This document shows, in pieces, positions 17,405 to 55,517 of a stretch of DNA of 64,000 nt. The stretch is taken from NCBI RefSeq assembly GCF_950295315.1, contig NC_080179.1:72228615-72292614 (forward strand), in the 5' to 3' direction. A program made the translations under genes and the position numbers. The notes beneath the pieces are model-generated. The model was not told where the DNA came from. It was given only the letters and a program-made list of their open reading frames with translations, and did no database searches. How positions within the stretch are numbered: the stretch's first letter is position 1; each line of letters opens with the position of its first letter. This DNA is from Erinaceus europaeus (Eukaryota; Chordata; Mammalia; Eulipotyphla; Erinaceidae).

Positions 17405-17406
<2 letters not shown>

Positions 17407-17439
<33 letters not shown>

Positions 17440-17462
17440 ACACACGCACACTCACTCTCACA
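17407..17462. repeat. (CA)n microsatellite
   Basis: CA units with GACA, CGCA and CTCA interruptions, ending 30 bp before the target duplication of the next element. Confidence 0.9.
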
Positions 17463-17504
17463 CAGTCTCCTGGTTTGGCAACTAATCAGATAACTGGAAA
17501 TGGA

Positions 17505-18705
17505 TTCTCATATCGCCAAGCTGCACATTAAGCTCACTCGAGGCCGAGGCATGGTGTAGATGGAAAACAGATGATACCGTTTTTGCAGTGCTAGGGATTA
17601 GTCGCCATTTTTTACAGTAATCAGATATCAGAGACATGTCTTTCGTGAGTGTTTCCTCGAGCATGTCGAACTTTGATGCCTGAGTTGCACAGCAGATGTC
17701 ATCGGCGTAGATGAACTTCCTTGAAGAAGTTTCTGGGAGGTCATTGATGTAAATATTAAATAGCATAGGAGCCAGAACAGAGCCCTGGGGGAGGCCACTT
17801 GAGACAAGTCTCCATCTGCTAGACTTGTCACCCAGATGCACCCGGAATCTTCTGTTTTGGAGAAGAAACGATATAGTGTTGGCCACCCATGGAGGCAGGC
17901 ATCTTGAGATCTTGACTAGGAAACCATGGTGCCAGACCGTGTCATAGGCTGCTGTGAGATCCACAAAGACAGCACCCGTCTTTAAATTCTTCTGGAATCC
18001 ATTTTCAATGTAAGTTGAGAGGGCCAGGGCTTGTTCGCAGGTAGATCTTCCTGGGCGGAAACCAGCTTGGGCGGGTGATAGGAATTTCTCTGTAAGATGA
18101 GAAATATGTGACAGAAGCAGCCTCTCAAGGAGTTTGTAACACACGGAGAGGAGAGAAATTGGTCTATAGCTGGCAGCCAGTATTGGGTCTTTCTTTGGTT
18201 TCAAAACCGCTATAATCTTCGCACGACGCCAAACTTTGGGCATAGACTCAGATTCCAAGATGTGGGACAGGAATGAAGCGAGCCACTTCTTTGCCGCAGG
18301 GCCCAGGTTAAGAATGAGTTCTGGGGTGATGTTGTCATAGCCAGCAGCTGTTCCCGGTTTAACCCTCTTCAAAGTGTCTTCCAGTTCAGACAGTGTAAAG
18401 GGAGAGAGTTTTGGAGATGGACAAGAAAACCGGAAGTGGGATGACCACTCGTGGGAAATTTCTCTTTTCCAGACTGGGTTGATCTTAGCACGTCCAACTT
18501 GAGTTAGGTGACTGGCCACTGAGTTTGGAGATACGGGAGGATGGGAGACGGGAGGGGGTTGGCTACCGGCACCCAGTCTGTGAAGAAGCTTCCAGGCCTT
18601 CCTACTTGAGTGGGTGAAGTTCAGACTTTCCGTGAGTTGTTGCCAGCAGGCTTGGCGTGCTACATCCAGGGAGGCAATGAGATGGTCAGCCACATCTGGG
18701 TCGCC
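17505..18705 (-). pseudogene. Reverse transcriptase core of the non-L1 retrotransposon (inverted half)
   Basis: Reads open on the minus strand, giving a 418-residue frame from 18738 to 17482. Its first few residues and last few residues lie in the opposite half and the flank. RT landmarks in order: KPGTAAGYDNITPELI (127-142), a WRRAKIIAVLKP block (170-181), SYRPISLLSVCYKLLERLL (190-208), QAGFRPGRSTCEQ (224-236), FVDLTAAYDTVW with the first catalytic Asp (D260), GLPQGSVLAPMLFNIYINDL (315-334), and YADD (344-347) with the paired catalytic Asp. A thumb-like segment follows, DYCKKWRLIPSTAKT (373-387). The catalytic residues are all present and there is no internal stop. YADD and the RPISLL and GLPQGSVLAP blocks are typical of CR1/L2/Jockey-type elements and unlike the FADD of L1. 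It cannot act alone, because the endonuclease is missing and the C-terminal half is on the other strand. Confidence 0.92.
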
Positions 18706-19512
18706 CAGCCAGTCTATCTTGGCGTTACTCTCGATCACACTCTGTCATTTCATGAACATCTCATAAAAACTGCAGCAAAGGTGGGCGCGAGGAATCACAT
18801 CATTGCAAGACTGGCCAGCTCCTCATGGGGCGTGAGCGCTTCCACACTACGATCATCATCTCTGGCATTATGCTATTCCACTGCAGAATACTGTGCCCCA
18901 GGATGGTTCCGTAGCCCCCATGTCCACTTGGTCGATTCCAAATTATATTCCTCCATGAGGATAATTTCTGGAACCATCCGTTCCACCCCGGTTCCATGGC
19001 TGCCAGTTCTTAGCAACATCGCCCCGCCAGATATTCGTCGGGATGCGGCATCATCTAAGTTCATTTCCCACGTCTACGCTCGACCGGACCTGCCAATATA
19101 CGCGGAGATCTTCGCCCACCCTGTCCAACGCTTGACGTCTCGTCACCCAATCTGGTCCCCTACGCCTACACTGAACTTCTCTGTTCCAGTCTCTTGGAAA
19201 CAGAGTTGGCAGTCAGCTGAGGTAAAGAACAAACACCTCATCACAGACCCCTGCGAGCCTCAACCCGGCTTTGACCTAGCACGTTATGATTGGGCCCTCC
19301 TCAATCGCTATCGAACAGGCCATGGCCGGTGCGCCGCTATGTTCCATCGCTGGGGAGCCAGAGACGACCCGAACTGCCCCTGCGGCTCCAGACAGACTAT
19401 GACCCACATAGTCAATGACTGCCACCTCTCCAGATTCAAAGGAGGTCTCGAAACTTGACATCAGGCTCAACCTGACGCTGTTGACTGGCTACGGAAGAAG
19501 GGCAAACGCTAG
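18705..19512 (+). pseudogene. C-terminal region of the same retrotransposon protein (direct half)
   Basis: Open on the plus strand from within a frame starting at 18610. The first roughly 31 residues of that frame are antisense to the inverted half and are not real. Genuine sequence begins near PVYLGVTLDHTLSF, the post-RT segment that should follow the last residues of the inverted half. Further landmarks are ALCYSTAEYCAPGW (residues 86-99), WLPVLSNIAPPDIRR (130-144), LLNRYRTGHGRC (230-241) and a zinc-binding-like Cx1Cx7Hx4C end motif (C256, C258, H266, C271). A TGA at 19456-19458 interrupts the frame just after GGLET. The same frame then continues for 17 codons, ending DWLRKKGKR, to a TAG at 19510-19512 directly before the AAG tail. 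The TGA is therefore probably a single disabling mutation near the natural C-terminus. Confidence 0.9.
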
Positions 19513-19531
19513 AAGAAGAACTGGAAATGGA

Positions 19532-24224: not shown

Positions 24225-24529
24225 TGTTGTTAAAATTCGGTGGCTCTAGCTGGCCGGGCTAGCTTCACGGGCGGGTAACAGAGACTGGGCAGGGAAGCTG
24301 TATTTCTTTATTCAGGAACAACGATTCATAAACTAACCCAAACTAATCACCAAACAGAACTCTGCTGCCTCTTTGCCCCGCGACGGTGCCAAGCACTCTC
24401 TAACCATGGAACTCTGGTACCCTCTTGGGGTTCCTTGGGGTGGGGCCAAGCGTGCCCGCGAAACTAGCAGGACTGATCCAATTTTCTTGGCAGGGGGAGA
24501 GCTAGAACAACCTAATGTAAAGCATACAA
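24225..24529 (-). repeat. 3' LTR of element A
   Basis: About 305 bp. On the minus strand it carries AATAAA (plus-strand 24307-24312), placing the poly(A) signal upstream of the terminal part. Relative to the partner LTR it lacks a 17-bp segment between two GAC copies, and its end lacks two or three bases at the junction with the polypurine tract. Confidence 0.85.
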
Positions 24530-24531
24530 TT

Positions 24532-24549
24532 CCCCCCCTTTTTTTTTTT
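24532..24549 (-). other. Polypurine tract of element A
   Basis: On the minus strand an A-run followed by a G-run directly abuts the 3' LTR, the position expected for the plus-strand primer. Confidence 0.8.
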
Positions 24550-25493
24550 AACTAAATGACTACAGTATCAGGGGTGTGGGGTGAACAGAAACCTATATCG
24601 TACAGGCATTTTTTAAAAAAAGAAACTGGCACAAACATGGAGAAACATGTAAGCAAGTAACAAGAACCAGTGTGCTGCCAAGGGAAGGCCTGAGGGTGCC
24701 ATTTCTTGCCTCTGTGGGCAAAACTTTATCAGCTTAAAAAAAAACATTTCTTGCCTCTGGGGGGGCGTACTTGACTCGACAGGCATTTGCATGGGGGTGG
24801 GGAATGGCCTAGAGTCCCAAAGGCAGCTGGCTGCAATTTACTTACTATGAAACAAAACTTGTTATTAGCATAACCACAGCACAATCTAAAATTTCTAATA
24901 GAGAAGGAATTTGAGACTTTTACATATCAACAACATCTTTTTAACCTTTTGTTACACCCATTCAAGATGGAGACACACCCTAGGTGTGTGCAGGAAAGGA
25001 AACCTCAGGCATGAGAATAATTAGCATAGCCATTGTGTAATCTACCATTTCTAATACAGAAGGTAATCAAGAGTTTTACATATCAACAAGTCTATTTAAC
25101 CTTTTGTTTAGACCAACTTAGTTAAAATATATTGATTGTTAACTAATTTTTACCTCAGACTTTAAATGTAAGTTAATTTTATCTTTATGAGAATTACGTT
25201 GAAAACTTTTTTCATTTAACTTTGACTAGTAAGAATTTAGCCTTAAAGTTACTGTTTACCAAACTTTAAACATACACATAAACATGGTCATTAATACACA
25301 AGGAGAGAAACCTTTGTTACGGAAGACATGTCATTTCAAACACGAATTTAGATATGTACTGTCTTAGTTGTTGGGGGGGGTCACCATCCGGAGGTGGCTT
25401 CCCACACAGCTCTACTTCAAGGAATTGCAGGTTGCGATCTCTGCACAAATCTCTGCGTACTCCAGCTTGTCTGCCTTCAGACTGGACCGGCAG

Positions 25494-26057
25494 CTAGAGA
25501 TCTCGTGTGCCCAATTTCGGCAGGGAGCCCGGGGGTGCGGGAGGTCTGGGATCGTTCCAGAATTCATAGCATGAGGGCGGGCAGGCCAGCCTTGTAGAAG
25601 GCGCGGGCCGAGGTGCCCAGGGGTGGTGGCCATGATAGGCTGCCGCGGCCCTGCCCCATGGCCCTGCCATGTCTGCTGCCCTGTTCACAGTGGCCAAGCA
25701 GCGTGGAGGGATCACGCGTCCAGTGCCCTGCGCCACGCGGTGGAGAGCCGGCTCCTGTGGGCTGGCCTGTGTTCTGGCATTGGGCTCCTGCGTGGTGTCA
25801 TCGGGCTCCTGTGTGCTGGCATTGGGCTCCAGCGTGTTGGCATCGGGCTCCTGTGTCCTGGCGTCCACCTCCTGCGGGCTGCAGGGCTGTGGGGCTGCGG
25901 GCGCGGTGCACGGGGTTGTCTGGGCGCAGCCGGCTGGCTGACTGTTCCACCAGGTGGAAAAGGCAGCTCCGTGCCTCGCCTCTTGCCCGCTGACTCTTCC
26001 AGACTCCTCAGGCTGTTCTGAGTTCGGCCAAGCGCGTGGAAACCACAGAGTGGTCAA
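25494..26057 (-). other. Unrecognised open frame in the GC-rich internal part of element A
   Basis: 187 codons, Pro/Ala/Gly-rich. A matching frame exists in element B, with shared blocks such as NSQPAGCAQTTP, ADMAGPWGRAAAAYHG and GSLPKLGTRDL. It contains five imperfect 7-residue units (EPNAxTQ-like; 21 bp each, about 25770-25880) that are largely missing in B. It ends at a TAG (CAG-type codon in B) directly after GTRDL. No known domain is recognised. It could be a degraded gag-region remnant or an open stretch by virtue of high GC content. Confidence 0.3.
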
Positions 26058-26197
26058 GAGATAAATGTTTCAGAAACAGCAAAACAGTCTCATGAAGAAA
26101 GAGCAGAGGCCTTTGGAGATCTCTTCACAAGCAGAAGAGAAGGCCATAGTACATAGGTAGCCAAATTGTCTTCACTTATCTGAGAGATGCGCAGGTC

Positions 26198-26215
26198 AGG
26201 TCCATGTGGGCGCCA
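26198..26215 (-). other. Primer binding site of element A
   Basis: Minus strand TGGCGCCCACATGGACCT, two bases inside the 5' LTR. The first nine bases match the 3' end of tRNA-Lys; the rest resembles the Lys1,2-type site with a one-base gap. Confidence 0.7.
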
Positions 26216-26217
26216 TT

Positions 26218-26541
26218 TGTTGTTAAAATTCGGTGGCTCTAGCTGGCCGGGCTAGCTTCATGGGCGGGTAACAGAGACGACCAGAGACATACGACTGGGC
26301 AGGGAAGCTGTATTTCTTTACTCAGGAACAACGATTCATAAACTAACCCAAACTAATCACCAAACAGAACTCTGCTGCCTCTTTGCCCTGCGATGGCACC
26401 AAGCACTCTCTAACCCTGGAACTCTGGAACCCTCTCGGGGTTCTTTGGGGCGGGGCCAAGCAGGCCTGCGAAACTAGCAGGACTGATCCAATTTTCTTGG
26501 CAGGGGGAGAGCTAGAACAACCTAATGTAAAGCATACAACA
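26218..26541 (-). repeat. 5' LTR of element A
   Basis: About 324 bp. It carries a GC box (GGGGCGGGGCC on plus near 26449) and a minus-strand AATAAA. It is closely similar to the left LTR over the shared part, differing by the 17-bp segment and scattered substitutions. Confidence 0.85.
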
Positions 26542-52926: not shown

Positions 52927-53499
52927 TGTTGTTAAAATTTTCTAAGGCTCTTGCCGGGCTGGCTTGCTTCACGGCCGGGTAACAGAGACGCGGAGACAAC
53001 GGCTGGGCAGGGAAGCTGTATTTCTTTATTCAGGAACAACGATTCATAAACTAAGACAAACTAATCACCAAACAGAACTCTGCTGTCTCTTTGCGGCGGC
53101 ACAAGCACTCTCTCTCTTACTCTGGCACTCAGGAACTCTCCAACTCTGGCACGCTGGAACTCTCGTACTTGAGAACCCTCTGAAACTCTGGCACACTGGA
53201 ACTCTCTCTTACTCTGTAACCCTGAAACTCTCAAACTCAGGAACTCAGGAACTCTGTCACTGGGGAACTCAGGAACTCTCAGACTCAGGAACCCTCTCTC
53301 GGGGTCCCTTACTCTCCAACTCAGGAACTCTGGAACTCTCTCTTACTCTGTAACCCTGAAACTCTCGAACTCAGGAACTCAGGAACCCTCCCTCAGGGTT
53401 CCTTGGGGCGGGGCCAAGCAGGCCCTTGAAATTAATTGGACTGATCCAATTCTCTTGATTTGGGGAGGGCTAGAACAAACCAATGTAAAGCATACGACA
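52927..53499 (-). repeat. 3' LTR of element B
   Basis: 573 bp. Minus-strand AATAAA at plus 53025-53030; GC box near 53406; minisatellite at 53098-53395. Confidence 0.88.
53098..53395. repeat. LTR-embedded degenerate minisatellite
   Basis: About 25 imperfect 10-12-bp units of the type GGAACTCTGG / GGAACTCAGG. A higher-order unit (CTCTCTTACTCTGTAACCCT) occurs twice, near 53195 and 53338. The 129-codon plus-strand frame over it is an artefact of the unit. Confidence 0.88.
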
Positions 53500-54973: not shown

Positions 54974-55517
54974 TGTTGTTAAAATTTTCGGGAAGGCTCT
55001 TGCCGAGCTGGCTAGCTTCACGGGCGGGTAACAGAGACGCGGAGACAACGACTGGGCAGGGAAGCTGTATTTCTTTATTCAGGAACAACGATTCATAAAC
55101 TAAGACAAACTAATCACCAAACAGAACTCTGCTGTCTCTTTGCGGCGGCACAAGCACTCTCTCTCTTACTCTGGCACTCAGGAACTCTCCAACTCTGGCA
55201 CTCTGGAACTCTCGTACTTGAGAACCCTCTGAAACTCTGGCACACTGGAACTCTCTCTTACTCTGTAACCCTGAAACTCTCGAACTCAGGAACTCTCAGA
55301 CTCAAGAACCCTCTCTCGGGGTCCCTTACTCTCCAACTCAGGAACTCTGGAACTCTCTCTTACTCTGTAACCCTGAAACTCTTCGAACTCAGGAACTCAG
55401 GAACCCTCCCTCAGGGTTCCTTGGGGCGGGGCCAAGCAGGCCCTTGAAATTAATTGGACTGATCCAATTCTCTTGGTTTGGGGAGGGCTAAAACAAACCA
55501 ATGTAAAACATACGACA
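54974..55517 (-). repeat. 5' LTR of element B
   Basis: 544 bp; minisatellite at about 55146-55400 with one fewer block (about 29 bp) than in the partner LTR. Confidence 0.88.

Follow-up and report, generated by a model that had tools for sequence, protein, structure and literature searches.

The window, a stretch of 64,000 nucleotides of Erinaceus europaeus DNA, carries at 17505-19518 a single non-LTR retrotransposon (LINE) insertion, bounded by an exact 13-bp target-site duplication (TSD). These limits coincide with those given in the original prediction, which had described open frames with reverse transcriptase (RT) blocks on two strands, three catalytic Asp residues and a C-terminal CCHC-like motif; each of these was found. 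The minus-strand frame (17482-18744, 420 codons between stops) contains an RT domain (Pfam RVT_1, E 4.5e-32) with the motifs FVDLTAAYD, GLPQGSVLAPMLFNIYINDL and YADD, so that the three catalytic Asp residues are all kept. The plus-strand frame (18610-19458, 282 codons), for which a Pfam scan at E<=0.1 gave no domain, covers the C-terminal region and includes the CCHC-like motif CPCGSRQTMTHIVNDC. The 5′ part of the element is inverted with respect to the 3′ part, the endonuclease part is absent (5′ truncation), and the target joint has a microhomology of 2 nt (TC). The original prediction mentions neither the inversion within a single copy, nor the absent endonuclease part, nor the in-frame stop at 19456-19458. 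Upstream of the insertion, at a distance of about 40-100 bp, lies a CA-rich microsatellite (17405-17465). Elsewhere in the window, two direct repeats of about 0.55 kb (52944-53499 and 54993-55517), whose starts are about 2.0 kb apart and whose ungapped blocks are 93-98% alike, resemble the paired LTRs of a short LTR element, and a second stretch related to these repeats lies at 24225-26539.

Features of the insertion, with positions in the window
Feature	Positions	Strand	Basis
Left target-site duplication AACTGGAAATGGA (13 bp)	17492..17504		Exact direct repeat of 19519-19531; adjoins the end of homology to other copies
Inverted 5′ part: end of APE-RT linker and reverse transcriptase, YADD at 17698-17709	17505..18702	-	RVT_1; identity to P0001 and to L002-L008
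Inversion joint: GCCC/GGGC microhomology of 4 nt, with a loss of about 9-11 nt of the element	18703..18706		Comparison with colinear L002
3′ part: C-terminal region, CCHC-like motif, terminal TAG at 19510-19512, short (AAG)n tail	18703..19518	+	P0001 and DNA identity
In-frame stop TGA, Leu in P0001	19456..19458	+	Comparison with P0001
Right target-site duplication AACTGGAAATGGA	19519..19531		Exact direct repeat of 17492-17504

The two frames were compared with a protein of 582 aa (P0001) that runs as one protein across both window parts. Both parts together, 540 of 559 compared residues are identical (280 of 290 in the 5′ part and 260 of 269 in the 3′ part), a two-part match to a continuous protein that is far beyond chance. 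The 19 residue differences include the in-frame stop, and five of them fit CpG decay in the window copy. Three residues of P0001 (RHE) fall between the parts and are missing from the window copy at the joint. Residues 1-20 of P0001, which were left out of the comparison, align at 80% over 20 positions with the antisense of the 3′ region of the element, indicating that P0001 is a rearranged copy too, yet continuous over the compared stretch. At the level of sequence, the two opposite-strand open frames are one protein in one inverted copy; the alternative of two independent genes on two strands was ruled out by the one protein and the one TSD.

Other copies were sought in the whole genome (2,720,570,532 bases in 1172 contigs), where the window itself lies at C96:72228615-72292614. 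The 5′ part has 97.7-98.1% DNA identity, over all 1198 bases, to each of seven loci (L002-L008), and the 3′ part has 98% identity over at least 813 of its 816 bases in 39 other places listed, 40 of 3260 candidates having been scored. Twenty of these 39 places were fetched. In 18 of them the arrangement is colinear, with the end of the 5′ part preceding the 3′ part in the same orientation at a distance of 11 nt; these copies hold 28 to 1198 bases of the 5′ part, the whole of it in two cases. The remaining two begin within about the last 30 nt of the 5′ part, and the stretch around the joint between the parts is inverted in none of the 20. The colinear copy L002 likewise has 11 nt between the two parts. 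All seven loci L002-L008 contain the 3′ part, complete or nearly so in five; in L004, which is clipped by the locus edge, and in L008 it is in two pieces. The suggestion that many copies are without the 3′ part was ruled out, matches of 39 nt being an effect of how candidates were cut.

The anatomy of the family was read from the near-complete copy L002 (about 3.08 kb, for a family of about 3.1 kb), whose ends were set from sequence common to other loci. Its upstream part encodes an APE-type endonuclease (PF14529, E 8.4e-13; PF03372, E 4.6e-12). Since L002 ends at the terminal stop and tail, it leaves no room for RNase H; none was found in P0001 in a Pfam scan at E<=1, and the domains precomputed for the 120 matches listed by one of the RT-query searches do not include PF00075. 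In the 21 copies compared (the 20 fetched, which were selected by their 3′-end match, and the window copy), a stop and an (AAG)n-like tail follow directly after the CCHC region. The 3′ tail of L002 is (TAG)n rather than (AAG)n. Among PDB chains, the match to human L1 ORF2p (E 2.7e-9) is weaker than that to R2 (E 1.6e-13), and the tail is (AAG)n, not poly-A; L1 membership was rejected on these grounds, in agreement with the predicted non-L1 LINE in a mammal-like genome. Direct repeats of at least 9 bp were found near the ends in only 11 of the 21 copies by a rough search in which ends were set approximately; in the other ten the end repeats are 4-8 bp, a length that chance can give. Taken together, the family looks compact, abundant and young, with endonuclease, RT and a CCHC-like motif and without RNase H.

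The original prediction had proposed that copies be counted and dated across the genome. The 3′-terminal 30-mer occurs 38,311 times at <=2 mismatches (19,180 + 19,131), and a reversed control gave 0. Two internally deleted derivatives of about 195 bp (L036:328-522 and L039:964-1157) retain both ends of the element, with about 150 nt from the 5′ side and about 55 nt from the 3′ side, and derivatives of this kind may make up much of the 38,311 3′ ends. Over the 3′ part, divergence between the window copy and the 20 fetched copies is 1.84% at all sites and 0.91% outside CpG-class columns, and among the 20 themselves 2.43% and 1.42%, figures that are biased low since the 20 were drawn from the 40 copies most similar to the window copy. 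The insertion has a CpG o/e of 0.59, against 0.22 for the window as a whole, and the window copy is about 97-98% identical to most other scored copies. The insertion is recent. Since the endonuclease is absent and the frame is broken by a stop, the window copy was dead on arrival.

In Vingi-1N3_EE and similar names the N marks non-autonomous families. Kojima, Kapitonov and Jurka reportedly described Vingi in 2011, under the names Vingi-1_EE and Vingi-1_AAl, as compact APE-RT elements without RNase H that have internally deleted derivatives. A recent expansion of Vingi in hedgehogs has been in print since that year (Kojima, Kapitonov and Jurka 2011, as cited in passages of PMC5753468 and PMC3183009). 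The row that PMC3183009 gives for the hedgehog Erinaceus europaeus contains a single LINE-derived name, Vingi-1N3_EE, with 311 copies that are less than 1% diverged, the name of one entry being blank, and a passage of the same source places the hedgehog Vingi among older likely horizontal transfers. The internal-deletion derivatives L036 and L039 are in line with the non-autonomous Vingi-1N3_EE as it appears in that row. No horizontal-transfer donor was identified among the RT relatives listed or in the tree described below. The window copy is very probably a hedgehog Vingi LINE of the Vingi-1_EE type that inserted recently in a 5′-truncated and 5′-inverted form. Its assignment to this family draws on the literature and on architecture, the comparison with Vingi-1_EE being one by description, and is most likely correct. 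The original prediction had inferred that a lineage unexpected as an active one in this host has been active recently. The recency stands, on the CpG content and the copy identity given above, and the unexpectedness is not supported, as the properties of the element fit Vingi; with the hedgehog expansion in print since 2011, the observation is real and the surprise is not. The window copy is most likely an ordinary, recent and defective member of an already described family, which resolves the flagged anomaly, the inversion explaining the frames on opposite strands.

Relatives of the RT were collected in two RT-query searches, each of which scored about 8,000 candidates and listed the best 120. 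In a 45-row tree, built without named CR1, L2, Jockey, Ingi or Vingi references, the window RT and P0001 form a pair (100/100) nested in a group of 20 rows (100/98) that includes two proteins of the eel Synaphobranchus. No row of this tree other than P0001 exceeds 65% identity to the window RT, and closer, short partial matches lie outside the tree (P0082, 75% over 46% of the query; P0044, 70% over 57%). RT blocks and a C-terminal CCHC-like motif are common to many LINE groups, among them the CR1, L2, Daphne and Jockey types; the relatives among the matches listed also range widely, over insects, shrimp, pseudoscorpion, eel, turtle and coelacanth. Both points would suit the reading of the original prediction, by which a lineage other than Vingi, of CR1, L2, Daphne or Jockey type, has newly become active in a placental mammal. 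Against such a lineage, a single protein of about 1000 aa, the lack of RNase H, the short deleted derivatives and the youth of the copies all fit the hedgehog Vingi as described and cited above. The hedgehog row of PMC3183009, with its one blank, points the same way, and a non-Vingi origin appears improbable.

For the Vingi insertion, twin priming is inferred as the route, and the window copy bears its expected signature. Vingi RNA would have been reverse-transcribed at a nicked target, starting from the (AAG)n 3′ end, while a second priming, from the other target strand, would have yielded a cDNA of a region further upstream in this RNA. Joining of the two cDNAs via the 4-nt microhomology would then have left an inverted front part, a loss of about 9-11 nt and a 13-bp TSD. 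Alternatively, two separate insertions in opposite orientation, or a later genomic inversion, might have produced the same layout, and composite or neighbouring pieces do occur elsewhere, for example at L036 and L039, which have a second, deleted copy nearby. At the window locus, however, a single TSD encloses both parts, and in element coordinates one part takes up where the other stops, apart from 9-11 nt lost at a joint with a microhomology of 4 nt; a later inversion would in addition need to have broken the DNA precisely at the target site and at the point where the two parts meet in the element. Such a two-step history is therefore hardly to be expected here. Contamination by arthropod or other foreign DNA, which the original prediction had named as a possible refutation, was ruled out by the TSD in host sequence, by host-type SINEs on both sides of the insertion (a 46-nt core, presumably that of a hedgehog SINE and so pointing to a hedgehog host, occurs 13 times across the window at 1 to 9 mismatches; a text search of the literature for part of it found no paper), and by the 38,311 3′ ends, with copies spread over many chromosome-size contigs.

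The resemblance of the window copy to Vingi-1_EE and Vingi-1_AAl, drawn by description, lies in the hedgehog host, the recent expansion, the compact APE-RT architecture, the lack of RNase H and the internally deleted derivatives; it is unlike them in being 5′-truncated and 5′-inverted. Ingi carries RNase H, and its absence sets Vingi apart from Ingi. The copies here differ from the Ingi clade in that stop and tail come right after the CCHC region. In the survey of another hedgehog, Atelerix albiventris, Vingi is presumably filed under the label 'I-Jockey'. Table 1 of that survey gives 4,476 'I-Jockey' copies and 2.232 Mb (PMC12026660), a number far below the 38,311 3′ ends found here, which counts against the Vingi reading; short derivatives may have been filed there under other labels. 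The wording 'Ingi-related' in the published 2011 title links the group to the Ingi clade. X12_LINE, labelled in a passage of PMC5753468 as an ancient human Vingi fossil, belongs by that label to the same clade and is an ancient human trace, whereas dozens of the copies listed here are 97-98% identical.

Inversions were mapped in 27 loci against L002 as a ruler, the ruler itself being counted as straight. An inverted front part is present in 6 of 28 loci (the window copy, L004, L005, L007, L008 and L041), and in L004 and L008 the RT part is inverted against the 3′ part, as in the window copy. The rate of inversion is strongly sampling-dependent, since it was found in one of the 20 3′-anchored copies (L041) and in four of the seven loci L002-L008. 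Clear flanking direct repeats are present at two inverted loci only, the window copy (13 bp) and L041, where a repeat of 5 bp in the rough search becomes 11 bp once the inverted part is counted. At L005 a 9-bp repeat overlaps the locus's own inverted piece and is uncertain, those at L007 (5 bp) and L008 (7 bp) are unconvincing as TSDs, and L004 is cut off by the edge of its locus. In the cell assays summarized in the relevant passage of PMC4245944, 5′ inversion was confined to L1 in human cells, save for one insert of Nimb-2_DR. A tentative and somewhat doubtful reading of the inverted copies is that a non-L1 LINE regularly gives rise to twin-primed 5′ inversions in a mammalian germline. If true, this would argue that inversion is set by the host cell, or by a target overhang some 10-15 nt long, and not just by a property of L1. 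The recurrence of 5′ inversion in a Vingi-type family may be unreported so far. With 38,311 3′ ends and recurring inversions, the genome offers a natural test of whether inversion is LINE-dependent or host-cell-dependent.

A close mechanistic parallel for the window copy is with 5′-inverted inserts of human L1. L1 copies end in a poly-A tail, and microhomology occurs at the joints of their inverted inserts. The window copy differs from human L1 in belonging to another LINE clade and in its (AAG)n tail. It is like the human 5′-inverted inserts in having a joint microhomology, an inverted 5′ part and a TSD within the 10-20 bp reported for them in a passage of PMC4245944, which also cites Ostertag and Kazazian 2001 for twin priming as the origin of 5′-inverted insertions of human L1.
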